Source: Xenophilus azovorans DSM 13620
Lineage (GTDB): Bacteria; Pseudomonadota; Gammaproteobacteria; Burkholderiales; Burkholderiaceae_C
Assembly: GCF_000745855.1 (NCBI RefSeq)
Contig: NZ_JQKD01000030.1
Coordinates: 1-64,000, forward strand
Direction of reading: 5' to 3'
DNA length: 64,000 nt
Part shown: one piece after another, positions 9,705-22,814 of the stretch
How positions within the stretch are numbered: the stretch's first letter is position 1
Layout: the number at the start of each line of letters is the position of its first letter
Translations under genes and position numbers: made by a program
The notes under the pieces: model-generated
What the model was told of the DNA's origin: nothing
The model's database searches: none
What the model saw: only the letters and a program-made list of their open reading frames with translations

Positions 9705-10763
9705 TCAGGCGCCCAGGCCGTTCATCAGCCCGGTGCGCGGATGGCAGTTGACGTATTCGTAGAACTGCTCGTCCGGCCCGAGCACGGCCACCTCGTGGTA
9801 CAGACGCAGCTTCAGGTCGAGATTCAGCGCCTGCACGTAGCGCATGAAGGCGCCGAAGATCTCGACATGGGTGGGGTGGGATTCGGACCAGCGCTCCATG
9901 TCGGCCAGCGCACGCCAGAAGCTCAGCCCGAATGACTTCTCCTGCGGCTGGCCCGCCGCGTCCAGGTGCCGCATGTAGCGGTTGCTGTAGCAACCCACCT
10001 GCAGGCCCTGGCGCTCCAGGAAATCCATCCCCGCGCGCAGCACCGGCTCGATCTGCTCCAGGTACAGCATGCGCTCCCTGCCTTGGGTCCCGCTCCAGTC
10101 CTGGCCCGAGCGGATCAGCGCGAGGTGGTCGTGGCCGGCGATGCGAACGCGCCGGCCGGGCTCCGGCACATCGGCGGCCACGGCACGCGCGCCCGACGGC
10201 CTCATCGCATCGGTCTGCGACAGCGGCAGGCGGTCGCGCATCGATCCCCAGTAGCCATGCTCCTGGATCTCGCCGCTCAGGCGCCCCATCGCCACGCCCG
10301 CGCCCTCCAGGGCGTCCGGCGTACTGAACAGGGTTTCGAAACGCGCCACGTGCGGCGTGGCGATCTCCCTGAAGTAGCCGATTCCCTCGTGCAGCCGTTC
10401 CTCCGACTGCCACCAGCCGCGCACGGCCGGCGCATCCCGCCAGCGGGCGAAGGCCTGGGCATCGGTCCAGTAGCCGATGGCCACCATGTTGTCGAATCCA
10501 TCGGCGTCGACGCCATGCGTCAGGTCGTGATGCAGCGGGCCGTCGGGCGCCGCGAACCCGGCGGCGATGCCGCGCAGCGCGGCACAGGCCTGCCCCAGCC
10601 GCCCGGCACCCCGCGACTGCACGCCGAACAGGCCGATCACGACGCGGGTGACCGCGGCCGGTGCGTGCGCCGCCCAGGCCGGATAGGGAGGCGCATAGTC
10701 GTCCTCGACGCGGCGCTGGCGCGTCCGGGGGCATCGCAGGTGCTCGGCGATCGCGGATTCCAT
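9705..10763 (-). CDS. Aldoxime dehydratase (heme-containing)
   Basis: This 352-aa protein dehydrates aldoximes (R-CH=NOH) to nitriles. It has the Oxd family layout: start ESAIAEHLRCPRTRQRRV, the segment NMVAIGYWTDAQAFARW, GYWGSMRDRLPLSQTD, HDHLALIRSGQDW (with R178 and S219 at positions matching active-site residues of the family), SHPTHVEIFGAFMR (proximal heme His region, 295-308) and LRLYHEV with H323 as the likely distal catalytic His. Length equals known Oxd enzymes (about 351-353 aa). It lies 17 nt downstream of the nitrilase gene on the same strand, so nitrile product can be passed to hydrolysis. Aliphatic or arylacetaldoxime preference cannot be told from sequence. Confidence 0.93.
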   Translation of the reverse strand: MESAIAEHLRCPRTRQRRVEDDYAPPYPAWAAHAPAAVTRVVIGLFGVQSRGAGRLGQACAALRGIAAGFAAPDGPLHHDLTHGVDADGFDNMVAIGYWTDAQAFARWRDAPAVRGWWQSEERLHEGIGYFREIATPHVARFETLFSTPDALEGAGVAMGRLSGEIQEHGYWGSMRDRLPLSQTDAMRPSGARAVAADVPEPGRRVRIAGHDHLALIRSGQDWSGTQGRERMLYLEQIEPVLRAGMDFLERQGLQVGCYSNRYMRHLDAAGQPQEKSFGLSFWRALADMERWSESHPTHVEIFGAFMRYVQALNLDLKLRLYHEVAVLGPDEQFYEYVNCHPRTGLMNGLGA

Positions 10764-10780
10764 GGCAGGCTCCCCGTGCG

Positions 10781-11821
10781 TCAGGCCGCCACCGGCACGT
10801 GCACCGCCGGCGTAGGCTCGGAATCGTCCTGCGCGATTTCGACGGCATCGGCCTCCGGCCGGCCCTGCAGGACGACGGGCCGGCGGCGCGTGCGGTCCAG
10901 CAGCAGCCGCGTGACGTCGGGGCGGGCGTAGTGGCCGCTGGGGTCCGCGGCGGTCTTGGCCAGCGCGATCGCGCCGAGGTCGATGTCGACGACCAGCAAG
11001 CCCTCCTGGTCCTCGGCCAGCGGCGTTCCCAGCGAGGTGCCGTCCGGGCCGTAGATGCGCGCGAAGCCGCCGCCCGCCTTGAGCAGTTGCTGCTTGGCGG
11101 GGTCGGTGCACATCAGCTCGACCATGGCGGGAGAAACCGTGGCGCAGGGCGCGAGCACGAAGCACTGGCCCTCCACCGCGTAGATCTGGCTCGCGGCGTT
11201 GTTGACCTCCGGGCCCAGCGCATGCGCGGCGCCGCGGTACAGCGAGAAGCTCGGCCAGGCCGCGCAGTGGATCTGCTCGTTCTGCGCGTACAGCGCGTAC
11301 TTGCTCAGCGGCTGCAGGTGCTCCCAGCAGCACAGCGAGCCGATGCGGCCGAGCGGCGTGTCCACCACCCCCAGGTCCGAGCCGTCGCCCTCGCCGTAGA
11401 CCGTGCGCTCCACGTGCGTGGGCTTGAGCTTGCGCCGCGCCTGCACGGTACGGCCGTGGTCGTCGATCAGGGCCTGCGCGATGTACAGGCTGCCGCCCGC
11501 CTTCTCGCTGTAGCCCAGCGAGACCCACAGGCCATGCTCGCGCGCGGCCTGTGCGATGCGCTCGAATTCCGGCGAGCCCACCACCAGCGAGTTGTCGGCA
11601 TAGCGCTGCGCGAACTGCATGCCCCAGGCCGGCGAGTCCAGCCAGATCCACCAGGGATAGCCCGGAATCCAGGTCTCGGGGAAGGCGATGAGCTTCACGC
11701 CCTGCGACGCCGCCTGCGCCATCAGGGCCAGGGTCTTGTCGATGGCGCCGTCGAGGTCGAGGAAGGCGGGTGCGGCCTGAACGGCGGCAACGCGGAGTTG
11801 GGGATGGATGGTGCTGGGCAT
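10781..11821 (-). CDS. Nitrilase (aliphatic/aromatic nitrilase branch)
   Basis: This 346-aa carbon-nitrogen hydrolase converts a nitrile to the carboxylic acid and ammonia. The catalytic triad is visible: E49 in FPETWIPGYP, K131 in ARRKLKPTHVERT and C165 in GSLCCWEHLQPLSKY. These spacings match plant-associated and Rhodococcus-type nitrilases rather than amidases or cyanide hydratases. The start MPSTIHPQLRVAAVQAAP is preferred over an upstream in-frame Met because it fits the family. It is the first gene of a two-gene operon with the aldoxime dehydratase and is divergent from an AraC regulator across 170 bp, so control by that regulator is likely. It is cytoplasmic. Confidence 0.95.
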   Translation of the reverse strand: MPSTIHPQLRVAAVQAAPAFLDLDGAIDKTLALMAQAASQGVKLIAFPETWIPGYPWWIWLDSPAWGMQFAQRYADNSLVVGSPEFERIAQAAREHGLWVSLGYSEKAGGSLYIAQALIDDHGRTVQARRKLKPTHVERTVYGEGDGSDLGVVDTPLGRIGSLCCWEHLQPLSKYALYAQNEQIHCAAWPSFSLYRGAAHALGPEVNNAASQIYAVEGQCFVLAPCATVSPAMVELMCTDPAKQQLLKAGGGFARIYGPDGTSLGTPLAEDQEGLLVVDIDLGAIALAKTAADPSGHYARPDVTRLLLDRTRRRPVVLQGRPEADAVEIAQDDSEPTPAVHVPVAA

Positions 11822-11991
11822 GCGGGCCTCCGATGCGTGTGGTGGATGCGGTCCCCGTGCCGCACGCGCCGGGTTTGCGCTGTGGCATGCGGGTTGCATG
11901 AAGCGTAGATTTGCCGTGCCGCGACGCCTTGACCACGGCTTGCAGCGTTCTTGTCCCTGCGTCGCATTCCGCTCCCCAGGAGGTTTCCACG
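11822..11991. promoter_or_regulatory. Divergent control region between nitrilase and AraC regulator
   Basis: This 170-bp gap holds both promoters of the aldoxime-nitrile module. The words GTGGCATGCGG and GTTGCATGAAG lie next to each other around 11880-11903 and could be half-sites for the AraC protein. CCAGGAGG at about 11976-11983 is a strong ribosome site for the regulator gene. No confident -35/-10 pair was found. Confidence 0.4.
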
Positions 11992-12972
11992 ATGACCCCG
12001 TTGCTCAGCACCGATGCCGTGCCGCGCGCCCAGCGGCTGGCCTACTGGACGGACATGATCTGCAACGTCTACGTGCAGCTCGGCTGCGACCCGGTGCGCG
12101 GCGAGCGGCCCGGCGACTTCCAGGGCAGCATCCATCAGCACGCGCTGCCGGGGCTGGACCTCTCGGTGGTGCGCTCGGAGCCGCAGAGGGTGCTGCGCAC
12201 GCCCGGCCACATCGCCAGATCGGGCGACGACTGCTTCCTGGTGAGCATCCAGGCGCGCGGGCGTGGCGTGGTGCGCCAGGACGGCCGCGACGCGATGCTG
12301 CAGCCCGGCGACTTCGCGCTCTACGACAGCACGCGACCGTACGAGCTGCTGTTCGAGAGCCGCTTCGCGCAGATCGTGCTCAAGCTGCCCGGCGAGCGGC
12401 TGCGCGGCGAACTGCGCGACACGCAGGCGCTGACGGCCACCACCGTCTCGGGCCGCGAAGGCGCAGGCCATCTGCTGCTGGGCATGGTGCGCACCCTGCA
12501 CGAAGACGTCCATCGGCTGCCGCCGGCCTCGGCGCTCGCCGTGGCACAGGGCGTGCAGAGCATCCTGGTGGCGGGGCTGCAGAGCCTGCCGGCGGCGCGC
12601 GTGCCGGCGCCGAGCCGCCTGGCGGCCTACCACCTCGCGCGCGTCAAGCAGTGCATCGAGGAGCGGCTGTGCGACCCGGAGCTATCGGTGAGCCGGCTGG
12701 CGGCGGGCCTGGGCGTCTCGGCGAGCCACATCCACCGGGTCTTCCGCAGCGAGCCGCTGACGCCGGCGCAATACATCTGGGAGCAGCGGCTGCAGGCCTG
12801 CAGCCGCGACCTGCTCGACCCGCGCCTGGCGGGCCGGCCCGTGGCCGACATCGCCTATGGCCGCGGCTTCAGCGACGCGGCACACTTCAGCCGCGCCTTC
12901 CGCGAACGCTTCGGCCGCACGCCGCGCGAATGGCGGCGCCAGCAGGCCGCGCCTACAGCAGGAACGGAATGA
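11992..12972 (+). CDS. AraC-family transcriptional regulator of the aldoxime-nitrile operon
   Basis: This is a 326-aa regulator. The N-terminal ~170 residues form an AraC-binding-like domain (RSGDDCFLVSIQARGRGVV, then LQPGDFALYDSTRPYEL). The C-terminus has two helix-turn-helix motifs: LSVSRLAAGLGVSASHIHR and VADIAYGRGFSDAAHFSRA, followed by FRERFGRTPREWRR. The ATG follows AGGAGG at good distance, which decides the start against an upstream in-frame Met. It is divergent from nitrilase and aldoxime dehydratase genes, so it probably activates them in response to an aldoxime or nitrile; this is inference from position. Its last 20 nt overlap the 3' end of the convergent methyltransferase gene. 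Confidence 0.93.
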   Translation: MTPLLSTDAVPRAQRLAYWTDMICNVYVQLGCDPVRGERPGDFQGSIHQHALPGLDLSVVRSEPQRVLRTPGHIARSGDDCFLVSIQARGRGVVRQDGRDAMLQPGDFALYDSTRPYELLFESRFAQIVLKLPGERLRGELRDTQALTATTVSGREGAGHLLLGMVRTLHEDVHRLPPASALAVAQGVQSILVAGLQSLPAARVPAPSRLAAYHLARVKQCIEERLCDPELSVSRLAAGLGVSASHIHRVFRSEPLTPAQYIWEQRLQACSRDLLDPRLAGRPVADIAYGRGFSDAAHFSRAFRERFGRTPREWRRQQAAPTAGTE

Positions 12973-13510
12973 AGCGCCGCGTGCGCGCCATGTAGTCGCG
13001 GTAGGCCTCGCCGAAGTGCGCCAGGCACTCCTGCTCGTCGCGCAGCGCGGTGAGCACCAGCAGCAGCGTGGCGGCCAGCACCAGCGCCGTGCCGGCCCAC
13101 GAGGGCTGCTTGAGGAAGGCGGCCCACGCCAGCGCGATCAGCGCGGCGTACATCGGGTGCCGGATGTAGCGGAAGGCGCCGGAGGTCACCAGCGCGCTGG
13201 TGCGCTCGAAGCCGTAGAGCGCGGGATCGTCGTCGCGCTGCGCACCGGGGCGGCCCTCGCGCCGCAGCCGCCGCACGGCATGCAGCGGCAGCCAGGCCGA
13301 CAGCACCAGCAGCGGCCACGACAGCAGCTGGTGCGGCGCCAGCGGGTCGTCGTGCCACACGGGCAGGTTCAGCACCACCAGGCCCAGGATGCATTCCCAG
13401 GCGAAGAAGCGGTAGAAGCCGTGCGAGCCGGGCCGGCGCAGCGGCCGGCGCGAGGCGTACGCGAGCGCGGCGGTGCCGGCGATGAACAGCAGGACCTGGA
13501 ACTGGAGCAT
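12953..13510 (-). CDS. Isoprenylcysteine carboxyl methyltransferase (ICMT)-family membrane methyltransferase
   Basis: This 185-aa protein has four or five hydrophobic helices and the ICMT/PEMT C-terminal signature: TSGAFRYIRHPMYAALIAL, then RDEQECLAHFGEAYRDYM. These bind S-adenosylmethionine in related enzymes. Bacterial members methylate diverse small or membrane substrates. It is the last gene of the leftward resorcinol-type cluster (9-nt gap after the ketosynthase-like gene), so O- or C-methylation of the cluster product is a reasonable guess. It overlaps the convergent AraC gene by 20 nt at the 3' ends. Family assignment is good; substrate unknown. Confidence 0.82.
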   Translation of the reverse strand: MLQFQVLLFIAGTAALAYASRRPLRRPGSHGFYRFFAWECILGLVVLNLPVWHDDPLAPHQLLSWPLLVLSAWLPLHAVRRLRREGRPGAQRDDDPALYGFERTSALVTSGAFRYIRHPMYAALIALAWAAFLKQPSWAGTALVLAATLLLVLTALRDEQECLAHFGEAYRDYMARTRRFIPFLL

Positions 13511-13519
13511 CGGGCGACT

Positions 13520-14023
13520 CTACTCCGGCACCCAGCGCTGCCAGGCCGTGCGCAGCCGGTCGCCGTCTTCCTCGACGCGGCCGAACAACAGCCCCGCGGG
13601 CGCCGCGCCGGCCAGCGCCAGCCGCAGCAGCGCCTGCGCGTCGCGGCCGGTCACGAAGGCCGCATCGCCGCGCCAGCCGAGCGCCTGCCCCAGCGCCGCC
13701 AGCATCATCGCCGGCTGGCCCTGCATGAAGTGGAAGGGCATGGGCAGCAGGCCGGCGCGCACCTGGCCGATGCCGGTGCGCATGGCGCCTTGCGCGCCGC
13801 TCAGGCTCCACACCCGCACGCGGGCCGCGGGCGGCAGCGCCGCCTCGCCCGCCTCGTCCAGGCAGCGGCATGCGCCGTACAGCGCCAGCTCGGCCCACAC
13901 GCCAATGCGGCGCGGGCGCTGGCCGAGGCGCTGCGCCAGCGCATCGCGCCAGTCGGCAGGCAGCGCGGGCAGGTCCACCTGCGCCGCCAGGCGCCAGCCG
14001 GGCATTGGGGCGATCGCGTTCAT
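13520..14023 (-). CDS. Beta-ketoacyl synthase-like N-terminal-domain protein
   Basis: This 167-aa protein resembles the short ketosynthase-like proteins found beside acyl carrier protein and ketosynthase genes in aryl-polyene and resorcinol clusters. Visible stretches include WRDALAQRLGQRPRRIGVW, RVRVWSLSGAQGAMRTGIG and MPFHFMQGQPAMMLAALGQ. No active-site Cys in a TACS-like context exists, so it cannot act alone as a condensing enzyme. It may be a structural or chain-length partner of the neighbouring ketosynthase. It overlaps the ketosynthase stop by 4 nt (ATGA), indicating coupled synthesis, which supports a complex. The assignment rests on context and weak similarity. Confidence 0.6.
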   Translation of the reverse strand: MNAIAPMPGWRLAAQVDLPALPADWRDALAQRLGQRPRRIGVWAELALYGACRCLDEAGEAALPPAARVRVWSLSGAQGAMRTGIGQVRAGLLPMPFHFMQGQPAMMLAALGQALGWRGDAAFVTGRDAQALLRLALAGAAPAGLLFGRVEEDGDRLRTAWQRWVPE

Positions 14024-15099
14024 GCGTCGCCGTCCTCCAGCACCAGCGCGGCATGGCCGCCGCCGAAACCGATCGACAGGGCCAGGATGTGGCGCGGGTG
14101 CAGGGGCCCGTCACCCGCGAACGCCACGCCCAGCGCGGGTTCGGCGATTTCCTGCATCGCCGGCCAGGCCTGCGCCTCGGCGCAGCCCATCAGCAGCGCC
14201 AGCTCGGCCGCGCCGGAGGCGCCCAGCGCATGCCCGATGGCGCCCTTGAAGCTCGCCATCGGCGGCGGTGTGCCGAACAGCGCACGCAGCGCGCCGGCCT
14301 CGACCGCGTCGTTGGCCGGGCTGCCGGCGGCCTGCGGCTTGACCAGGCCGATGTCGGCCGGCTGCAGGCCGCTGCGCGCCAGTGCCTGCCGGCACACCGC
14401 GACGATCGTGTCGTGCTGCGCGCCCGTCGGGTTGCGGCCGTCGGCGATGTTGGCGCCGCCGCGCAGCCGCCAGCGCGCCGGCGCCGCCGTCAGGTGCAGG
14501 GCGGCCACGGCCTCGCCGAGCACCAGCCCGTCGCGCTCCGCGCCGAAGGGCCGGGCGTGCTGCGGCGAGAGCAGCTGCATCGCGCCGAAGCCGGCCACGG
14601 AGAAGCGGTTGCGCAGTTCCACGCCCAGCACCAGCGCCTGCGTCGCCTCGCCGGCCTGGAGCAGGTCCATCGCCGCCAGCACGGCATTGAGCGACGAGGT
14701 GCAGGCGGTCGAGACGGTGAAGACCGGCCCGCGCCACGCCAGCGCCTGCGCCACGGCCTCGCCGAAGGTCTGCAGGTCGCCGGCGAAGGGGCCGGCCGGC
14801 GCGCCGCCCTCCTCCTCGAAGCCGGCGTCGAGCGAGGAGGAGCCGATCAGGAGCGGCACGTCCGCGCGCGGATCCACACCGCCACACTGCGCCGCCACCT
14901 CGCGCACGTGAGCGACCAGCCGGTCCAGCCACGCGCCGCCCGCATCGGGCAGGCGGTGGACGGGCCACGCGAAGCCTTCCGCCACATCCACATGCTCCGG
15001 CGCACCCTCACCAAGACGCAGCGCCTCAACCACGCCCGGTACGCCCTCGCCCAGTGGGCAAACGAGGCCCATGCCCGCAACGTAGACGCCGTGGCTCAC
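14020..15099 (-). CDS. Beta-ketoacyl-ACP synthase (KAS I/II-like) with altered active site
   Basis: This 359-aa thiolase-fold condensing enzyme has the nucleophile C133 in TVSTACTSSLNA and the second His H290 in KGAIGHALGASGA. The first catalytic His, normally in an HGTGT motif, is replaced by Gln: KPQAAGSPANDAVEA (Q256). The change could shift activity from condensation to decarboxylation or chain-length control, as in ketosynthase-like partner proteins; this is inference. It is shorter than FabF (about 410 aa). The start is GTG, overlapping the ACP stop (GTGA). With the ACP and the 167-aa ketosynthase-like protein it forms the chain-building part of the cluster. Confidence 0.87.
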   Translation of the reverse strand: MSHGVYVAGMGLVCPLGEGVPGVVEALRLGEGAPEHVDVAEGFAWPVHRLPDAGGAWLDRLVAHVREVAAQCGGVDPRADVPLLIGSSSLDAGFEEEGGAPAGPFAGDLQTFGEAVAQALAWRGPVFTVSTACTSSLNAVLAAMDLLQAGEATQALVLGVELRNRFSVAGFGAMQLLSPQHARPFGAERDGLVLGEAVAALHLTAAPARWRLRGGANIADGRNPTGAQHDTIVAVCRQALARSGLQPADIGLVKPQAAGSPANDAVEAGALRALFGTPPPMASFKGAIGHALGASGAAELALLMGCAEAQAWPAMQEIAEPALGVAFAGDGPLHPRHILALSIGFGGGHAALVLEDGDA

Positions 15100-15377
15100 A
15101 CGCGCCGCTCGATCAGGTGCTGCGCCAGGCTGGCGATGGAGGCGAGCGCCCGGCGCGTCTCCTTGCTGTCGGGCATGCGCACGCCGTAGCGCTGCTGGAT
15201 CGCCATGGAGATCTGCAGGGCGTCGAGCGAATCGAGGTCCAGCCGCGCGTCGGGGCCGAACAGCGGCTCGTCGTCGCGCAGGCCGCCTTCGGGCGGCTCC
15301 TTCTCGACGGCCTCCAGCAGCACCTGCCGGAGTTCGTCCGCCAGCGCGGCGGCATCGGGGGAAAGGGCTTCGTTCAT
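15096..15377 (-). CDS. Acyl carrier protein
   Basis: This 93-aa carrier protein has the phosphopantetheine attachment Ser S50 in LDLDSLDALQISMAI, followed by QQRYGVRMPDSKETRRALA, typical of ACP helix II to IV. It is a dedicated carrier of the gene cluster, distinct from housekeeping AcpP, which is shorter and has a DSLD motif in another context. It is 14 nt downstream of the ABC permease gene and overlaps the ketosynthase start. No phosphopantetheinyl transferase gene is in the window, so it would rely on one elsewhere. Confidence 0.9.
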   Translation of the reverse strand: MNEALSPDAAALADELRQVLLEAVEKEPPEGGLRDDEPLFGPDARLDLDSLDALQISMAIQQRYGVRMPDSKETRRALASIASLAQHLIERRV

Positions 15378-15391
15378 TCGTCGTCAGGGAG

Positions 15392-16657
15392 TCAAAAGCC
15401 GCGTCGGCGGAACAGCCAGGCCGCCAGCGCCAGCATGGCCAGGCCGAACACCACCAGCCGCAGCACGTGGGGCGCCGCCTCCGCCAGGCCGCCGCCGCGC
15501 AGCAACACGGCCAGCAGCCCTTCCAGGCCCCAGTTCATCGGCGACCACTCGGCCACGCGCTGCATCAGGGGCGGCATCACGAAGCGCGGCACCATGATGC
15601 CGCCCACCGCGCCCATCAGCACGTTGAGGATCGGCCCCACCGTGGCCGCTTGCGCATGGGTGCGCACGGCGCAGGCCAGCGCCAGCGACAGGCCCACCGC
15701 CGCCACGCCGGTCGCCAGCAGCACCACGGCGAGCGCGGCGCCGTCCACGCCGGCCAGCGACAGCGCCTCGCCGCCCAGCAGCGGCATCACCCACACGCCC
15801 ACCGCCAGCATCAGCAGCGCCTGCAGCGCGTTCACGCCCAGGTAGGGGATGGCCTTGGAGGCGAGCATCAGCGCCGGCGGCACGCCCAGGCTGCGCAGCC
15901 GCGCCAGCGTGCCACTGCTGCGCTCCTGGATGAACAGGCTGGACATCGAGGCGACGACGAAGAACATGCCGAACACCAGCCAGGCCGGCACGTTCTGCTG
16001 CACGGCCGTGGGCCGCACGGCGCCGCCGGCGAAGCGCTCGGCCTGCACCAGCGCGGCCATCGACGCGCCGGGCGAGGCGCCGGCGCTCATGTATTCGAGG
16101 CGCGCCTTGGCGTCGCCGGCGGTGCCGACCAGCTCGGCGCGCAGGGCGTTGAAGAAATGGCCGTCGATGCCCGGTTCGGTCAGCAGGCGCAGGTGGGCGG
16201 CGGTCGGCAGCGCGGGCGCATCCAGCGCGGCGGACAGGCCCGGCTCCAGCACGACGACGTACTTGAGTTCGCCGCTGCGCAGCGCCTCGCGCCAGTCGGC
16301 AGGCAGCGGCCGCGGCTCGCCGTGCGCGCGCACCCACAGGCCCTGCACCAGCCGCGCCGCGTCGCCGGCGTCGCGCACGTCCAGTGCGTACGGCAGCGAC
16401 GCGGCCGGCGGGTTGTAGTAGTGCTGCAGTGCCAGCGACATCAGCACGATGAAGATCATCGGCATGACGAACAGCGCGCCCAGGCCGTGCAGGTCGCGGC
16501 GCAGGGCCAGCAGCTCCTTGCGGATCAGCGCGGCGAGGATGGCCCCCACGCTCCCCGCTTCGCGTGGTTCGCTGCCCCCCGAGGGGGCGCTCGCGCCTTC
16601 GGGCGGCCGGGCGGCGCTCGGGCGCAGCCCATCGTCGGCGGGTCGCCTATTCAGCAT
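15392..16657 (-). CDS. ABC-2 type transporter permease of the resorcinol-type cluster
   Basis: This 421-aa ABC-2 permease has one N-terminal transmembrane helix (LFVMPMIFIVLMSLALQHY), a large periplasmic domain (about residues 75-225) and five C-terminal helices (for example WLVFGMFFVVASMSSLF). It pairs with the ATPase encoded upstream, overlapping it by 11 nt. Direction is probably export of the cluster product. Residues about 11-38 are a low-complexity, Pro/Ser/Gly-rich stretch containing [15 protein letters not shown]; this is encoded by a dispersed DNA repeat (see the repeat entry) and is not typical of the family. A Met after the repeat is absent, so either the protein carries the insert or it starts at another codon. 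Confidence 0.88.
   Translation of the reverse strand: MLNRRPADDGLRPSAARPPEGASAPSGGSEPREAGSVGAILAALIRKELLALRRDLHGLGALFVMPMIFIVLMSLALQHYYNPPAASLPYALDVRDAGDAARLVQGLWVRAHGEPRPLPADWREALRSGELKYVVVLEPGLSAALDAPALPTAAHLRLLTEPGIDGHFFNALRAELVGTAGDAKARLEYMSAGASPGASMAALVQAERFAGGAVRPTAVQQNVPAWLVFGMFFVVASMSSLFIQERSSGTLARLRSLGVPPALMLASKAIPYLGVNALQALLMLAVGVWVMPLLGGEALSLAGVDGAALAVVLLATGVAAVGLSLALACAVRTHAQAATVGPILNVLMGAVGGIMVPRFVMPPLMQRVAEWSPMNWGLEGLLAVLLRGGGLAEAAPHVLRLVVFGLAMLALAAWLFRRRGF
16541..16625 (-). repeat. Dispersed repeat copy A (CCCCCTCGGGGGG core), inside the permease gene
   Basis: On the minus strand this copy contains GCGCCCCCTCGGGGGGCAGC followed by a GAA-CCACGCGAAG-CG stretch and GAGCGTGGGGGCC. 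It shares its core and flanks with copies at about 34473-34553 and 46447-46530. It lies in frame and encodes the [12 protein letters not shown] peptide near the N-terminus of the permease. Confidence 0.7.
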
Positions 16658-17561
16658 CGCGCAGCGAGCGGTGGGTGAGCGCCATGAAGAGCTGCTCCAG
16701 GTTCTGGCGCCCGAAGTCGATGTGCTGCGGCTGCACGCCGGCGGCGTCCAGCGCCGCCAGCACCTCGGCCGGCCGCGCCGCGTCGTCGAGCTGCACGCTC
16801 CACTCCTCGCCCATCCGCGCGACCCGGCCGAAGCGCGCCAGCGTGTCGGCATGCAGCCCCGGCGCGCGCAGGCGCAGGACGCGCCCCCCCTCGGACAGCA
16901 GCTCCGCCAGCGGCCCTTCGCGCAGCAGCCGGCCCTGGTCGAGGATCGCCACGCGGTCGGCGATGGCCTCGATCTCCTCCATGTAGTGCGAGGCGTAGAT
17001 GACGGCCATGCCCCCGTCGGCCAGCGCGCGGATGGCGTCGAGCACGAAGGCGCGCGACTGCGGGTCCACACCCACGGTCGGCTCGTCGAACAGCACCAGC
17101 TGCGGCTCCGCCAGCAGCGCGATCGCCAGGTTGAGCCGGCGCTTGAGGCCGCCGGACAGGCGCTCCGCGCGCACGTCGGCGAAGGCTTGCAGTTGCGCCG
17201 TCGCCAGGCAGGCGTCGACGCGGGCCGCCCGCCGCGCCCCCGTCAACCGCGCCGCGGCGGCGAAGCAGGCCAGGTTCTCGGCCACGGTGAGCATCGGGTA
17301 GAAGGCGTAGTCCTGCGGCGCCACCGCGATGCGCGTCGGGGCCTCGGCGCGCAGCGCGGCAAGCGGCATGCCGTCCACCTCGACGCGCCCCTCCTGCACC
17401 GGCAGCAGGCCGGCCAGGATGGAGATCAGCGTGGTCTTGCCTGCGCCGTTGGGCCCGAGCAGGCCCAGCACCTGCCCCCGCTGCGCGCCGAGCGACACGC
17501 CGGCGAGCGAGCGCCGCGTCGCCGCGGGGTAGCGGAAGCCGAGCCGGTCGAGGACGAGCAT
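16647..17561 (-). CDS. ABC transporter ATP-binding protein of the resorcinol-type cluster
   Basis: This is a 304-aa ABC ATPase of the multidrug/antibiotic export type (CcmA-like). Walker A is GLLGPNGAGKTTL near residue 40, the signature is ERLSGGLKRRLNLA near 135, Walker B is LVLFDEPTVGVDPQ near 160 and the switch His is in VIYASHYMEE. The C-terminal ~80 residues form an extra domain ending in LEQLFMALTHRSLR, common in drug exporters. The ATG at 17561 lies 7 nt after the acyltransferase-like gene. An in-frame extension upstream has no family similarity. It works with the permease encoded next, which it overlaps. Confidence 0.93.
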   Translation of the reverse strand: MLVLDRLGFRYPAATRRSLAGVSLGAQRGQVLGLLGPNGAGKTTLISILAGLLPVQEGRVEVDGMPLAALRAEAPTRIAVAPQDYAFYPMLTVAENLACFAAAARLTGARRAARVDACLATAQLQAFADVRAERLSGGLKRRLNLAIALLAEPQLVLFDEPTVGVDPQSRAFVLDAIRALADGGMAVIYASHYMEEIEAIADRVAILDQGRLLREGPLAELLSEGGRVLRLRAPGLHADTLARFGRVARMGEEWSVQLDDAARPAEVLAALDAAGVQPQHIDFGRQNLEQLFMALTHRSLRDAE

Positions 17562-17568
17562 GGCGTCG

Positions 17569-18573
17569 CTAGGCCACGGCGCGCCGCAGGTCGCGGAAGA
17601 AGGCCTCCTCCTGGTCGGCCTGCGCGCGCAGCAGTGCCGCCAGCCGAGGCGGGTCAACCGCCTCGCGCCCCTTGACCATGCGCGCCGCCTTCAGCGCGAA
17701 GGCGCGCCAGCCGTCGCCGATCGCGGTGAGCCGATCGGAGAAGGCCGCCAGCTGCGGCATCGCCACCGCGTCCGCCGCTTCCTGCAGGAAGGCGGCGTAG
17801 ATGAAGCGGAAGCCCGCGCCGCCGGTGCCGATCTCCTCCTGCATGCGCACGAGGTGGCCGATGTAGTCGACGGTGTGCGCCGCCTGCGGCGGCAGCGCCT
17901 GCAGCCGCGCAGCCAGCCGGCGCATGCCGCGCACGCCCACCAGCGGGATCGGCGCCAGCATGCTGCGCACATTGCGGCGGATCGCCTGCGCCACCATCGC
18001 CTGCGTCAGTTCGGTGCGCGGCACGGCCTCGGGGTAGTACATCATCCCCTTGGGGGCCAGCACGCCCTTGGCGAAGCGGGCGCGCGCCAGGTCGGCGGCG
18101 GCGCAGCGCATCGGCGTCTCGAACACCGGGTCGCTGACGAGGTAGTCGTCGCCGTCCTTGCCGTAGACCAGCAGGTTATGCGCGTTGAAGTGGAAGCGCA
18201 TGTCCGGCGGGAAGTACGGCAGCCAGTACACCGAGGTCTGCAGGCCGACCAGCCGGCCTTCGGCCAGCAGCGCGTCGAGCCGGCGCTGGCCGGCCTCGGG
18301 CGTGCGGAAGGTCTCGAAGCGGAAGCGCGCCGAGAGCGGCCCCAGCAGGCCCTTGATGATCGCGCGCGGCGGCATGCGGTACGAGACCAGCGGCAGCCCC
18401 GACAGCTTGACGAAGGGCAGGTACGCGAAGGACAGGCCCGCCGCCAGCCCGAAGGCCAGCGGCTCGGTCATCGGCACACCGTGGTGGCGCAGCATGTTCG
18501 AGATGACGCCGCTCTCGCAGTGCGCCGCGTGCCGGTGCTCGAAGCGCGTAAGAGTCGGTGCGATGGCGTTCAT
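17569..18573 (-). CDS. BtrH N-terminal domain-containing protein (putative acyltransferase/peptidase-like)
   Basis: This 334-aa protein resembles BtrH, which transfers an acyl chain from an ACP in butirosin biosynthesis. The N-terminus FEHRHAAHCESGVISNML has the conserved Cys (C19) of the papain-like fold, and FHFNAHNLLVYGKDGDDYL supplies the probable catalytic His. It is soluble, with no signal peptide. In this setting it could move or release the ACP-bound chain; that is inference from family and context. It overlaps the upstream 131-aa gene by 4 nt (ATGA). Homologues occur with DarA/DarB-like genes in other Burkholderiales, as far as I recall. Confidence 0.75.
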   Translation of the reverse strand: MNAIAPTLTRFEHRHAAHCESGVISNMLRHHGVPMTEPLAFGLAAGLSFAYLPFVKLSGLPLVSYRMPPRAIIKGLLGPLSARFRFETFRTPEAGQRRLDALLAEGRLVGLQTSVYWLPYFPPDMRFHFNAHNLLVYGKDGDDYLVSDPVFETPMRCAAADLARARFAKGVLAPKGMMYYPEAVPRTELTQAMVAQAIRRNVRSMLAPIPLVGVRGMRRLAARLQALPPQAAHTVDYIGHLVRMQEEIGTGGAGFRFIYAAFLQEAADAVAMPQLAAFSDRLTAIGDGWRAFALKAARMVKGREAVDPPRLAALLRAQADQEEAFFRDLRRAVA

Positions 18574-18965
18574 GGCAGTGTGCGCAGTTGCTGGACGTCC
18601 AGGCCCAGCGCCTCGGCGTAGCGCGCCAGGTGACGCAGCGGCAGGGCCGCGAAGTGGCGCGGCTGCAGGTGGCGCCGCACGCGCCACTGCCAGAAGCCGG
18701 TGACCTGCGAGAGCAGCGCCACGTCCATGCGGCGCCGGTACATCCAGTATTCCAGCGGCGAGGCGGCGCCGGCGCGCACGCGCTCGCGCGCCTCGGCGGC
18801 CTGGGCGTCGATGACCTCGATCGCGTGGCGGGTGACGATCTCCTCGGCCTCCCAGCCGCGTGAGCCGACCGCCACGCTGCGGCCCTCGGCATCGCGCGCG
18901 TACATCAGCTTGCGGTGGCCCGCCAGCGTCGCGTTGCCTTCCTGCGGTACGCCCTCGATGTCCAT
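18570..18965 (-). CDS. Conserved cluster protein of unknown function (131 aa)
   Basis: I do not recognise this protein. It is hydrophilic, Arg-rich and has no signal peptide or transmembrane helix. Visible stretches are HRKLMYARDAEGRSVAVGS, WEAEEIVTRHAIEVIDAQA, PLEYWMYRRRMDVALLSQV and FAALPLRHLARYAEALGLD. The C-terminal half (MDVALLSQVTGFWQWRVRRH) looks helical and could pack as a small helix-turn-helix-like or carrier-docking domain. The start ATG is 2 nt after the KAS III stop, and the stop overlaps the BtrH-like gene, so it is tightly embedded in the operon and very likely part of the pathway. Confidence 0.75.
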   Translation of the reverse strand: MDIEGVPQEGNATLAGHRKLMYARDAEGRSVAVGSRGWEAEEIVTRHAIEVIDAQAAEARERVRAGAASPLEYWMYRRRMDVALLSQVTGFWQWRVRRHLQPRHFAALPLRHLARYAEALGLDVQQLRTLP

Positions 18966-18967
18966 GG

Positions 18968-20104
18968 CTAGACAGCTTCCAAATGGATGAAGCCGCTGCC
19001 GAAGCGGCCGCTCTCGGGCACGAACATCAGCAGCTTGTGGCCGCGCTCGATGCGGCCCGAACGGAACAGCTCGTCGAGCATGATGTACGGCGAGGCCGAG
19101 CCCGTGTTGCCGCGCGTGGCGAGGTTGGTGAACCAGCGCTCGCGCGGGATCGGCAGGCCGACCTCCTCCAGGCACTGCTGCAGCGGCCCGGCGAAGTAGT
19201 GCGAGGACAGGTGCGGCAGGAACCAGTCGATCTGCGCCGCGCGCAGGCCGCGGCGGTCGATCAGCGCGCGCAGCGGCTCGCCGAGCGTGGCGCGCACGAT
19301 GTGCTCGTTGAGCAGGCGCACGTCCTGCTTGATGGCGAAGGTGGACTGCGCCTGCCACTGCTGCGGCGGGATGCGCATGTAGCCCTGCAGCACGCCGTGC
19401 TCGTCGCGCTCGCCGCCGGCGTACATGCACACGGGCAGCTCGTGCGCCGCGGAGGACAGCTCGATCCAGTCCACGCGCAGCGACAGCGGCCCGCGCGGCG
19501 CACGCTCCAGCAGCACCGCGCCGGCGCCGTCGGAGAGCATCCAGCGCAGGAAGTCCTTCTCGAAGGCGATCTCCGGGTGCTGCTCCAGCGCCTGCACCTT
19601 GTGTGCGTGCTCGGCCTCGAAGTGGGAGGCCATCAGGAAGGGCGACACCAGCTCGGAGCCCGTGGCCACGGCACGCTCGGCCTCGCCGGCGCGCACCGCC
19701 AGCCACGCATGGCGCAGCGCCGCGGCACCGGCCAGGCACACGCCGGCGCAGGAGACGACCTCCAGCCGCGGCCAGCCCAGCTCGCCGTGCACCATCACGC
19801 CGTGGTTGGGCAGCAGCTGGTCGGGCAGCGAGGTGCCGGTGGCCAGGCAGTCCACGCGGCCGATGTCCTCGCCGAGCGCGCGCACGGCCTGCGCGGTGAG
19901 CTGCGCGTTGCTCATGGCCGGCAGGCCGGTGGCGCGGTCGATGGCGTAGTGGCGCGAGACGATGCCGTTGCTGCGCAGGATGAGCCGCCGCGCCCGCGAG
20001 GGTTTGCCGCCGACGCGGCCCAGGACGTCCTCGATCTCCTCGTTGCTGACCGGTTCGAAAGGCAGGTGGGCGGCGGTCCGGGTCAGGAAGACATCAGTCG
20101 TCAT
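18968..20104 (-). CDS. darB: DarB-like beta-ketoacyl-ACP synthase III (resorcinol/cyclohexanedione-forming type)
   Basis: This 378-aa KAS III-fold enzyme has an intact triad: C119 in EVVSCAGVCLAG, H298 in WFLPHLSSHYF and N333 in LATRGNTGSASPY. It is longer than FabH (about 320 aa) and is next to a DarA-like gene, the arrangement used to make dialkylresorcinols, in which DarB joins two beta-ketoacyl chains to a cyclohexanedione. SLPDQLLPNHGVMVHGELG is unlike housekeeping FabH. It overlaps the darA-like gene by 11 nt. The KAS III fold is certain; the resorcinol role is inferred from the neighbours. Confidence 0.8.
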   Translation of the reverse strand: MTTDVFLTRTAAHLPFEPVSNEEIEDVLGRVGGKPSRARRLILRSNGIVSRHYAIDRATGLPAMSNAQLTAQAVRALGEDIGRVDCLATGTSLPDQLLPNHGVMVHGELGWPRLEVVSCAGVCLAGAAALRHAWLAVRAGEAERAVATGSELVSPFLMASHFEAEHAHKVQALEQHPEIAFEKDFLRWMLSDGAGAVLLERAPRGPLSLRVDWIELSSAAHELPVCMYAGGERDEHGVLQGYMRIPPQQWQAQSTFAIKQDVRLLNEHIVRATLGEPLRALIDRRGLRAAQIDWFLPHLSSHYFAGPLQQCLEEVGLPIPRERWFTNLATRGNTGSASPYIMLDELFRSGRIERGHKLLMFVPESGRFGSGFIHLEAV

Positions 20105-21074
20105 ACAGGCGGCAGCGGTCGGTGGCCGAGCCGGAAGGGAGCTCGAATCGGTGTTTCATTCTAGTGAGCGCCCCGCGGAACAAGGGCCGCAGCAGGGCCT
20201 GCAGCGCCAGGCTCAGGGGCACCACCGTGACGATCAGCACGAACAGGAAGAGCACGTACAGCGCCACCACCGGCTGGCGCGCCGGATGGCCCGGCCCGCC
20301 GATGGCCATGATCAGCTTGCCCCACAGGTAGAAGCTGCGGGTGCCGGCCTTCTCGCTGACGTACAGGCGCGGCTGCGCCTGGACCGCGCCCAGGCCGGCC
20401 AGCAGCGGGCCGGGGCCGCGCTCCTCGCCGCGCGCCAATGCATCGCGCAGCGCCAGGCCGAAGCGGCGCGCACCGGCGATCTGCGCCGGCGTCAGTCCCG
20501 CATCGGGTAAACCCCAGAAGCCGCGCTTGCGTCCGGTCAGCAGCCACACGGGTGTGGTGAGGAAGGTCGCGAAGGTCGAGCCCGGGTCGGTCAGCACCAC
20601 GTTGTCGATCAGGCGCGCGCCGGTGGCGGCCAGCAGCGCCTTGAGCTTCTCGTGCGCCATCAGCCACATGTTGCGGCAGGCGATCACGGTGACCACCGGC
20701 CGGCCGGCGAGTACCTTCGCCGCCACCGGGTCCTGCAGGAAGGCGGTGACCGGCTGCGAGGGCGCGAGGAACCACACCTGGTACGGCAGGATGACCAGGT
20801 CGAACACCTCGTCGCCGCGCAGGCCCGGCGGCTGCAGCGGCGCCGGGCGCAGGTGGGCCGTCTCGGGGAAGGCGTCGAAGAAGCGCAGGAAGGGCCAGGG
20901 AAAGGGCCAGGGCGTCGCCGGCCGCAGCACTTCCTCGTGGATGTGCACATGGCCGGCCTCGCGCAGCGGCGCGATCAGCCGGTCGGTGACCGCGTCGAGC
21001 TGGCCCGTCTGCGAATAGCGCACCACCAGGATGCGCTTGGGCGGCGAGGCAGGCGGATTCGGCGGGACGGACAT
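20094..21074 (-). CDS. darA: DarA-like dialkylresorcinol condensing/aromatising enzyme
   Basis: This 326-aa protein begins with a flavodoxin-like fold: RILVVRYSQTGQL (14-26) is the phosphate-binding loop. A further motif is VTVIACRNMWLMAHEKLKA. Near the C-terminus a hydrophobic helix (VVALYVLFLFVLIVTVVP) would tether it to the membrane. This layout fits DarA proteins, thought to aromatise the cyclohexanedione made by DarB. It is the first gene of the leftward ten-gene cluster; 108 bp separate it from glpD, and that gap holds the cluster's probable promoter, for which I see no clear hexamers. Family call is moderate to good, the product is unknown. Confidence 0.72.
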   Translation of the reverse strand: MSVPPNPPASPPKRILVVRYSQTGQLDAVTDRLIAPLREAGHVHIHEEVLRPATPWPFPWPFLRFFDAFPETAHLRPAPLQPPGLRGDEVFDLVILPYQVWFLAPSQPVTAFLQDPVAAKVLAGRPVVTVIACRNMWLMAHEKLKALLAATGARLIDNVVLTDPGSTFATFLTTPVWLLTGRKRGFWGLPDAGLTPAQIAGARRFGLALRDALARGEERGPGPLLAGLGAVQAQPRLYVSEKAGTRSFYLWGKLIMAIGGPGHPARQPVVALYVLFLFVLIVTVVPLSLALQALLRPLFRGALTRMKHRFELPSGSATDRCRLYDD

Positions 21075-21182: not shown

Positions 21183-22814
21183 TCAGGCGCCGCCGCGGGC
21201 GAACCAGGCCTGCACCTGCTCGCGCTGCTGCGGCGTGTAGCGCAGGCCGAGCTTGGAGCGGCGCCACAGCACGTCGTCGGCCTGCGTGACCCACTCCTCC
21301 TCGCGCAGGTAGCGCAGTTCGCGCTCGAACAAGCCCGGCGCCACCTCGGCGCCCAGGTCGGCCAGCGAGGCGGCGTCGCCGAGCACGCGCTCGATGCGCG
21401 CGCCGTAGGCATGCGCGAGGCGCTGCGCCAGCGCCGGCGGCAGCCACGGGTGGCGCTGCTGCACTTCGGCCGCGAAGCGCGCGAAGGCCTCGTCGGGCCG
21501 GGTACGGCGATCGGTCGGGCCGATCCACGGCGACAGGTCGCCGCCGGCCAGCCAGGCGCCCTCGGTCCAGGCCGGGCGCGCCTCGCCCAGCATGCGGCCG
21601 ATCTCGCCGGCTGCGTCCTCCGCCAGCTTGCGGAAGGTGGTGATCTTGCCGCCCCATACCGACAGCAGCGGCGCCGCGTCGGCGTTGGTCTCCAGCAGGT
21701 AGTCGCGGGTGACGGCCGAAGGGTCGCCCGAGGCGTCGTCCAGCAGCGGGCGCACGCCGGCGTACGTCCACACCACGTCGGCCGGCGCCACGGGCCGGGC
21801 GAAGTAGCGGCTGGCCTGCTCGCACAGGTAGGCGACCTCGTCCTCGCCGATGCGTGCGGCGCCCGGGTCGCTGCCTTCCAGCTCCACGTCGGTGGTGCCG
21901 ATCAGCGTGTAGTCGCCCTGGTAGGGGATGGCGAAGATGATCCGCTTGTCGGGGTTCTGGAAGATGTAGGCGTGGTCGTGCGTGAAGATCCGCGGCACCA
22001 CGATGTGGCTGCCCTTGACCAGCCGCAGGTGCCGTGTGGCCAGCGCGCCGCCGCGCACCGGCCGCGCCGTCTGGCGCAGGAAGGACTCGGCCCACGGCCC
22101 CGCCGCGTTGACCAGCGCCCGCGCGCGCACGGTGAAGGCGCGGCCGTCCGCGCCCACCAGCGTCGCCAGCCAGTGGTCCTGGCCGCGCTGCGCCTCCACG
22201 CAGGCGGTGCGGGTGAGGATCTGCGCGCCGCGCTCGCGGGCGTCGATGGCGTTGAGCACGACCAGGCGGGCGTCGTCCACCCAGCCGTCGGAGTAGACGA
22301 AGCCGCGGCGGTAGTGCGCCTTGAGCGGCTCGCCGGCGGGATGGCTGCGCAGGTCCACCGAGCGCGAGCCGGCCAGCACCTCGCGCCGCGCCAGGTGGTC
22401 GTAGAGGAACAGGCCCGCGCGGATCATCCAGGCCGGCCGCATCGACGGGTCGTGCGGCATCACGAAGCGCAGCGGCGCCATGATGTGCGGCGCGCTGCGC
22501 AGCAGCACCTCGCGCTCGGCCAGCGCCTTGCGCACCAGCGAGAACTCGTAGTACTCCAGGTAGCGCAGCCCGCCGTGGATCAGCTTGGTGGAGGCCGAGG
22601 AGGTGTGCGAGGCCAGGTCGTCCTTCTCGCACAGCAGCACCTTCAGGCCCCGGCCCGCCAGGTCGCGCGCGATGCCGCAGCCGTTGATGCCGCCGCCGAC
22701 GACGAGCACGTCGCATTCGAGCGGTGCCATGCGGGCCGAAGGCGCCTGCGCCGCCGGAAAGGTGGGCGCGAAGACGGCAGAATCCGCAGAGGAAGTCGAT
22801 TCGCTTTGGTTCAT
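21183..22814 (-). CDS. glpD: Aerobic glycerol-3-phosphate dehydrogenase
   Basis: This 543-aa FAD enzyme oxidises sn-glycerol 3-phosphate to dihydroxyacetone phosphate and feeds electrons to ubiquinone at the inner membrane. The FAD loop is VLVVGGGINGCGIARDLAG (about 36-54). SSASTKLIHGGLRYLEYYE and YTLIGTTDVELEGSDPG are GlpD/GlpA hallmarks. Length suits the family, with a ~30-residue N-terminal extension before the dinucleotide fold. AAGGA lies about 6 nt before the ATG at 22814, which supports this start. It is divergent from glpR across an AT-rich region, so repression by GlpR is likely. Confidence 0.96.
   Translation of the reverse strand: MNQSESTSSADSAVFAPTFPAAQAPSARMAPLECDVLVVGGGINGCGIARDLAGRGLKVLLCEKDDLASHTSSASTKLIHGGLRYLEYYEFSLVRKALAEREVLLRSAPHIMAPLRFVMPHDPSMRPAWMIRAGLFLYDHLARREVLAGSRSVDLRSHPAGEPLKAHYRRGFVYSDGWVDDARLVVLNAIDARERGAQILTRTACVEAQRGQDHWLATLVGADGRAFTVRARALVNAAGPWAESFLRQTARPVRGGALATRHLRLVKGSHIVVPRIFTHDHAYIFQNPDKRIIFAIPYQGDYTLIGTTDVELEGSDPGAARIGEDEVAYLCEQASRYFARPVAPADVVWTYAGVRPLLDDASGDPSAVTRDYLLETNADAAPLLSVWGGKITTFRKLAEDAAGEIGRMLGEARPAWTEGAWLAGGDLSPWIGPTDRRTRPDEAFARFAAEVQQRHPWLPPALAQRLAHAYGARIERVLGDAASLADLGAEVAPGLFERELRYLREEEWVTQADDVLWRRSKLGLRYTPQQREQVQAWFARGGA

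Follow-up and report, generated by a model that had tools for sequence, protein, structure and literature searches.

What do the ten genes that fill positions 12953-21074 on the minus strand of a 64,000-nucleotide stretch of Xenophilus azovorans DSM 13620 (contig NZ_JQKD01000030.1, positions 1-64,000; hereafter the window) make together? A sequence-only reading had seen in them a DarA/DarB-type dialkylresorcinol (DAR) pathway with a BtrH-like transferase, an ABC exporter and a probable methyltransferase, and the protein families and residues agree with this. In pathways of this family, as described in part in PMC3949708, DarB forms a cyclohexanedione from two acyl chains and DarA turns it into a 2,5-dialkylresorcinol. 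There is good support for classing the locus as a dar operon of the betaproteobacterial Azoarcus type, joined by a gene for an ICMT-type methyltransferase, and its product is very probably the resorcinol half of a yellow membrane pigment. On the best reading, the product would be an arcuflavin-type ester of an aryl polyene and a DAR, not a free resorcinol lipid. Taken as a whole, the explanation that the operon and its ICMT-like enzyme make such an ester pigment, with an acyl hand-over by DarJ and DarK, appears likely to us.

In the proposed pathway, DarB would join two fatty-acid-derived acyl chains to the cyclohexanedione and DarA would aromatise it to the 2,5-dialkylresorcinol, and a xanthomonadin-type gene set found in the same genome would provide an aryl-polyene chain bound to an acyl carrier protein (ACP). 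DarC together with DarJ/DarK may pass the acyl chain to or from carrier proteins with no lengthening, and DarE, a BtrH-like putative Cys-His-Asp transferase, would esterify the resorcinol hydroxyl with the polyene. DarF/DarI would carry the lipid across the inner membrane, and the ICMT-like protein might methylate a phenolic oxygen of the product.

Gene order, core enzymes and polyene genes

Related dar loci were obtained by scanning GTDB genomes with DarB, and the best 80 of 575 confirmed loci were compared. In 78 of the 80, darB is immediately preceded by a DarA homologue, and darA-B-D-E are found in order in 73. Some loci are cut short; among the 61 with at least 7 kb between the darB start and the locus end, darA-B-D-E-F-I-C-J are in order in 49 and darK follows too in 36. 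As for the other 12, darC-J-K lie ahead of darA in six (L040, L042-L045 and L049), four of which have no darF/darI in the expected place, and the remaining deviants are L061, L062, L064, L067, L079 and L083. According to Table 1 of PMC3949708, the region azo0283-azo0293 of Azoarcus BH72 contains darA, darB, darD (hypothetical), darE (BtrH-like), darF (ABC ATPase), darG-darH and darI (permease), followed by darC (ACP), darJ (ketosynthase) and darK (hypothetical), and the pigment of this strain is a polyene-DAR hybrid, arcuflavin (PMC3949708). The idea that the combination of BtrH and an exporter is a new layout is therefore given up, since the same nine-gene order was already published (PMC3949708). 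In kind the locus is ordinary, and its membership of an operon type already published is well supported.

By their residues, DarB and DarE look like active enzymes. DarB groups as had been claimed, falling in the StlD/DarB family with an intact Cys-His-Asn triad (C123 in 84/84 rows, H298 in 83/84 with one gap, N333 in 84/84), and its closest solved relative in the PDB is StlD (5gk0, E 4.7e-121). DarE matches the Pfam families BtrH_N (166.4/29.7; scores are given as bits/cut-off) and DUF4872 (177.6/28), and its C19, H132 and D148 are invariant in 77/77 rows, which is what a thioester transferase would need; a PDB sequence search with DarE gave no match. BtrH acylates an aminoglycoside with an ACP-bound acyl group, so that a transfer from polyene-ACP to a phenol is the natural guess for DarE. 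DarA is a putative aromatase, named from its homology and its position next to DarB; no curated family model matches it. The alignment of DarA conserves a YSQ(T/S)GQL-type motif, and CRNMW in 80 of 81 rows, and a PDB sequence search with DarA gave no match. In the carrier protein DarC, Ser50 (in LDSLDALQ) is present in 68/68 rows.

The aryl-polyene genes, absent from the account of the sequence-only reading, lie elsewhere in the genome. Contig C21 carries LolA_3 and a chorismatase of the FkbO/Hyg5/XanB2 type (PF21168 140.8 bits; TIGR04444 232.1, under the cut-off of 325), near which there are an AMP-ligase with a FabA-like tail, a lipid-A-type acyltransferase and a short-chain reductase. The ACP of the polyene cluster is over the cut-off of NF006617 (130.3/70), an MMPL-like protein gives 18.9 bits, under its cut-off, and a protein with no Pfam match shares 44% identity with an L042 protein read as a dehydratase. 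Moreover, a class I methyltransferase gene (L091:8109-8975) stands beside a polysaccharide deacetylase gene, which is the arcM-arcN order of Azoarcus. On contig C31, a polyene-type ketosynthase (NF006618 487.2/407) precedes a partner that shares 36% identity with the ArcJ-like protein of L042. Judged by these matches, the genes on C21 and C31 are a xanthomonadin/arcuflavin-type aryl-polyene set, and because the genome has such genes a polyene-resorcinol ester is the likely product.

Of 200 genomes sampled from the family, including that of the window, six are darE-positive; LolA_3 is found in 6/6 of these and in 47 of the 194 others (Fisher p 2.8e-4), or in 5/5 darE-positive genomes when the window genome is left out (p 1.1e-3); these and the following p-values assume independent genomes, and the genomes are related, so that kinship inflates the counts. 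A wider set of 50 genomes, 47 of them darE-bearing and three darE-negative, was drawn from the 80 DarB loci, and five of the six darE-positive family genomes are in both sets, as seen from identical match coordinates (G019=L030, G096=L034, G103=L031, G151=L014, G186=L048). There LolA_3 occurs in 49 of the 50 genomes, 46/47 with darE and 3/3 that are DarB-positive and darE-negative. LolA_3 is therefore rejected as a marker restricted to the hybrid pathway.

The methyltransferase at the end of the operon

The protein encoded after darK matches the ICMT structure 4a2n_B in the PDB (E 6.1e-6), and its own genome holds one match at E up to 0.001, which is the protein itself. With homologues in the family sample accepted at E up to 1e-15, an ICMT homologue is present in three of the six darE-positive genomes versus 0/194 darE-negative ones (Fisher p 1.5e-5), or in 2/5 versus 0/194 once the window genome is excluded (p 5.1e-4); among the 194 there are four with a remote relative of DarB (37-40% identity). 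Within the genus, ICMT accompanies full-length DarB in 3/3 genomes versus 1/12 without it (window genome counted, p 0.009), or in 2/2 versus 1/12 when the window genome is omitted (p 0.03). The wider set has it in 34 of 50 genomes, namely 20/20 Variovorax, 14/27 other darE-bearing and 0/3 darE-negative genomes. The gene adjoins dar in only 6 of the 80 loci, where it is placed divergently upstream (L006-L008), convergently downstream (L029, L054) or on the same strand after darK (L048). Since it co-occurs with dar while mostly not lying beside it, the gene seems to track the pathway and not the neighbourhood, and we read the ICMT-like protein as a tailoring methyltransferase of the dar pathway.

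As its target, a resorcinol oxygen is favoured over the aryl head, because the polyene cluster has a methyltransferase of its own. It is a real possibility, though an unlikely one, that the enzyme is instead an O-methyltransferase of the polyene aryl head group. The methionine-derived methyl of Azoarcus arcuflavin is placed by PMC3949708 on the polyene half and not on the resorcinol, and in Dechloromonas hortensis (L126; L080=G275) the ICMT gene directly follows class I methyltransferase and polysaccharide deacetylase genes inside the polyene cluster, 5 kb from LolA_3. However, the polyene cluster of X. azovorans already has the class I methyltransferase in arcM-arcN order, and among the 53 LolA_3-bearing family genomes ICMT is found in 3/6 darE-positive versus 0/47 darE-negative ones, which suggests that it follows dar and not the polyene genes alone. 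The gene could also be a bystander at the operon end, unrelated to the pigment, as would be allowed by its rare adjacency to dar, by its absence from 13 of the 47 wider-set genomes with darE and by its presence in G010 (L133), a member of the genus that lacks full-length DarB; the homologue there is 62% identical and may be either a counterexample or what is left of a pathway since lost. The bystander role is nevertheless improbable in view of the distribution in the family sample and in the genus, and of the three different placements next to dar and one inside a polyene cluster.

Probable acyl hand-over by DarJ and DarK

DarJ had been taken for the ketosynthase that builds the acyl chain, a role with which its residues disagree. 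Its best PDB relatives are the aryl-polyene ketosynthase ApeO (6qsp_A, E 6.1e-33) and 7f28_B, and in the alignment VKPQAAGSPAND of DarJ falls on INLHGTGTKLND, so that the position of the HGTGT histidine is Gln256. The 64 DarJ rows, which are 63 distinct sequences since L030 and L095 are one genome, have Q at this position in 56 cases and H in eight, and C133, K285 and H290 are invariant in all of them. Loss of the HGTGT histidine marks KS0 enzymes, non-elongating ketosynthases, as defined for type I polyketide synthase (PKS) domains (PMC4661987), and DarJ agrees with this definition in sequence, having lost the histidine and retained the active-site C133. Because of this Gln, an acyl hand-over by DarJ fits better than chain building, and the role of plain chain builder is not supported. 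In the DarJ tree, where 11 of 62 inner branches are drawn open, the His rows are split three ways, with L083 next to the polyene ketosynthases, L029 together with L054, and four Azoarcus-type rows from metagenome-assembled genomes in a clade with Pseudothauera. The HGT motif itself occurs only in L083 (KSHGTASLLN), a locus (L083:9057-17286) from an alphaproteobacterial metagenome-assembled genome in which the same gene set is divided into two halves, one on each strand, and DarJ has HGTAS. A plasmid search with DarJ gave seven records, each under 60% identity.

The AlphaFold2 model of DarK (pLDDT 91.1, pTM 0.86) has a half-ketosynthase fold. Foldseek matched it best to 7f28_C and 7f28_A (E 1.2e-5 and 2.7e-5) and in fifth place to 6qsp_B, the chain-length factor (CLF) ApeC (E 1.2e-3), and the comparison with 7f28_A gave a VIA Z of 12.6; a PDB sequence search with DarK returned a chance match only (E 0.35). 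A TAC-type nucleophile motif is found in none of the 48 DarK rows, and the invariant Cys54 lies away from the nucleophile position. Furthermore, in independent searches DarJ and DarK hit the same two complexes, each on the chain opposite to the other's (6qsp A/B, 7f28 B/A). The model thus places DarK as a CLF-like partner in a ketosynthase-CLF pair of the aryl-polyene type, and DarJ and DarK are probably a couple of this kind that transfers acyl chains rather than extending them.

One alternative holds that DarC and DarJ are a dedicated fatty-acid-like synthase building the acyl chain of DarB, with a free exported (methylated) dialkylresorcinol lipid as the product. The two proteins share an operon and DarJ retains the acyl-binding Cys; in addition, DarJ matches the NCBIfam model of AmcF, although below the cut-off (127.2/325), and AmcF-AmcG, a heterodimer of a ketosynthase and its partner remotely related to DarJ, does one C2 elongation (PMC10698177). 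If AmcF should lack the HGTGT histidine while elongating, the KS0 argument for DarJ would be weaker. We give this alternative little credence, since Gln replaces the histidine of decarboxylative condensation in DarJ of the window and in most rows, whereas HGTAS is retained by the polyene ketosynthase of X. azovorans, and since, according to PMC3949708, the Azoarcus DAR proteins gave a DAR in E. coli and free DAR was not detected in Azoarcus itself. Moreover, no homologue of darD, darE, darI, darC, darJ or darK was found at the DarB locus of the three darE-negative genomes (L067, L075, L079). Dialkylresorcinols of Photorhabdus and Pseudomonas are free signals or antimicrobials. That the resorcinol of X. 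azovorans is likewise released free, with the polyene genes acting separately, is very improbable: the dar and polyene sets do lie on different contigs, and the three DarB-positive, darE-negative genomes also carry LolA_3, but the darD-E-I-C-J module absent from their three loci is part of the operon of the Azoarcus hybrid producer.

Several points weigh against the arcuflavin-type ester explanation. DarB scores 454.5 with the exception-level NCBIfam model 'dialkylresorcinol biosynthesis protein DarB' (NF053539), below the cut-off of 550, for which reason the protein is filed under the StlD/DarB family and takes the name darB from gene order. LolA_3, carried by all three darE-negative DarB genomes, marks polyene genes generally and not the hybrid. 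To these are added the eight His-256 rows of DarJ, the elongating AmcF-AmcG pair, the methyl on the polyene half of arcuflavin, the darE-bearing genomes that have no ICMT homologue and the homologue in G010. A more specific form of the ester explanation is that DarJ/DarK, as a KS0-CLF pair, would relay the finished aryl polyene from the polyene ACP to DarC, that DarE would esterify it, and that an SrsB-like ICMT would cap the phenol that is still free, so that the pigment would be an O-methylated polyene-DAR; this chain of steps is tentative and, as it stands, rather unlikely. No description of an O-methylated polyene-DAR pigment was found in the literature searched.

The DarJ histidine loss and the ICMT link with the dar pathway are two additions beyond the published picture. 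No report of either was found in the literature searched, which consisted mostly of listings and is weak evidence of absence, and no paper was found, again mostly from listings, on the step joining polyene and resorcinol in flexirubin- or arcuflavin-type pigments. The locus offers a testable division of labour among a ketosynthase without the condensing histidine, a dedicated ACP and a BtrH-like transferase, and from the methyltransferase link one would expect Variovorax and its relatives to have a pigment with additional methylation, for which the ICMT-like gene is a candidate.

Features of the locus and comparison with known systems

The ten genes are present where the sequence-only reading had put them, the coordinates of the open reading frames and the profile families being in agreement (see the table). 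Profiles of the two libraries used, Pfam and NCBIfam, identify eight of the ten proteins; DarA and the 167-aa DarK have no significant match in either. The genes had been described as following each other without gaps and mostly with overlaps of 4-11 nucleotides, which holds for five of the nine junctions (overlaps of 11, 4, 11, 4 and 4 nucleotides), while the other four are gaps (2, 7, 14 and 9 nucleotides). A scan for promoters and terminators gave no promoter-like site (0.1 expected) and two terminator-like sites (1.9 expected).

Table. The ten genes of the dar locus, with positions in the window and the basis of each assignment (scores as bits/cut-off)
Gene and predicted product	Position	Strand	Basis
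darA, flavodoxin-like 'DAR aromatase', 326 aa	20094..21074	-	homology and position beside darB
darB, StlD/DarB-family ketosynthase, predicted DAR cyclase, 378 aa	18968..20104	-	NF005293 575.7/450
darD (NCBIfam DarG family), 131 aa	18570..18965	-	NF053536 167.5/70
darE (NCBIfam DarH), BtrH-related acyltransferase, 334 aa	17569..18573	-	NF053550 (DarH_acyl) 483.9/300
darF, ABC ATPase, 304 aa	16647..17561	-	PF00005 109.6 bits
darI, ABC-2 permease, 421 aa (or 385 aa from GTG 16549)	15392..16657	-	PF12698/PF01061
darC, acyl carrier protein, 93 aa	15096..15377	-	PF00550 (PP-binding) 27.5/20.8
darJ, KS0-like ketosynthase, 359 aa	14020..15099	-	PF00109/PF02801 (ketoacyl-synt N+C)
darK, truncated chain-length-factor-like half ketosynthase, 167 aa	13520..14023	-	predicted fold
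ICMT/PEMT-type membrane methyltransferase, 185 aa, predicted tailoring enzyme	12953..13510	-	PF04191 38.4/25, PF04140 30.3/24

The start of the darI permease is uncertain: 24 of the 57 relatives read out are 383-392 aa long, close to the shorter of the two forms. With the GTG start, the ATPase-permease junction would become a 97-nucleotide gap holding a G+C-rich inverted repeat (16568-16603, core CCCCCTCGGGGGG), perhaps a repeat element, which is present in a single copy within the window. At the darF-darI junction of another locus there is a gene for 151 aa (L093:6470-6925, with a DUF1016/YhcG-type N-terminus by eye); since the prevent-host-death/PilT pair of Azoarcus BH72 shares this junction, it is possibly an insertion hot spot.

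The 131-aa DarD had been called unknown, but NCBIfam names it 'DarG family dialkylresorcinol biosynthesis protein'; the flexirubin DarG equivalog (NF053545) was rejected for it at 124.1 bits, under the cut-off of 170. Its AlphaFold2 model (pLDDT 90.9) shows two strands and a long helix, with a Cro/SinR-like helix-turn-helix of the DdrO/SinR/434-Cro type over residues 62-131. Foldseek gave no match for the model under E 0.001 (best E 0.025), so that the helix-turn-helix, a common small fold, is read from the best VIA-align Z of 9.8 over 64 residues. The putative DNA-reading helix spans residues 93-99; W94, R98 and H99 lie within it or next to it and do not vary among 55 sequences, in keeping with a fixed partner. 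On this model, DarD may be a regulator.

Upstream of darA, at a distance of 108 nucleotides, the window has a gene for a glpD-type glycerol-3-phosphate dehydrogenase (21183-22814, by Pfam), and similar glpD-type genes were seen by eye upstream of darA in L094 (L094:770-2470, 231 nucleotides away) and L102 (L102:299-1975, about 6 kb away); the site of the operon therefore seems to be shared. On the other side of the operon, 9705-12972 contains an AraC-type regulator, a carbon-nitrogen hydrolase of the nitrilase type and a haem-containing dehydratase of the aldoxime dehydratase type (PF13816), which are likely an aldoxime-nitrile degradation set.

Among known systems, ApeO-ApeC (6qsp) differs from the DarJ/DarK pair in that its HGTGT histidine is Gln in DarJ and in that DarK has 167 aa, compared with 238 for 6qsp_B. 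SrsB of Streptomyces griseus resembles the last protein of the window by description, being also an ICMT-type methyltransferase beside a resorcinol-making enzyme, and its study, by its title, reportedly concerns the decarboxylative methylation of alkylresorcylic acid. The gene srsB is described as an ICMT in an alkylresorcinol pathway (PMC6669644), whose enzyme SrsA is a type III PKS, unlike the DarB system. The flexirubin clusters of Bacteroidota have a DarG family protein in common with the window, although the flexirubin model itself matches below its cut-off. The darE-negative Pseudomonas loci (L075 and L079, with DarA) and the Brenneria locus (L067, no DarA hit) have a DarB 56-57% identical to that of the window. 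Combined dar and polyene clusters are named for Variovorax paradoxus S110, Dechloromonas aromatica and Sideroxydans lithotrophicus (PMC3949708), which by the text of that paper are the same pathway combination. Variovorax strains are the closest relatives among the best 80 of 575 loci (DarB 76-82% identical), and all 20 of them (L006-L025) have an ICMT homologue, beside dar only in L006-L008. Azoarcus BH72 shares with the window the nine-gene order darA-B-D-E-F-I-C-J-K, the protein families and the presence of xanthomonadin-type polyene genes elsewhere in the genome. The differences are that the darG-darH pair (prevent-host-death/PilT) between darF and darI in Azoarcus BH72 is missing in the window, while the window, unlike Azoarcus BH72, has an ICMT-type gene after darK.

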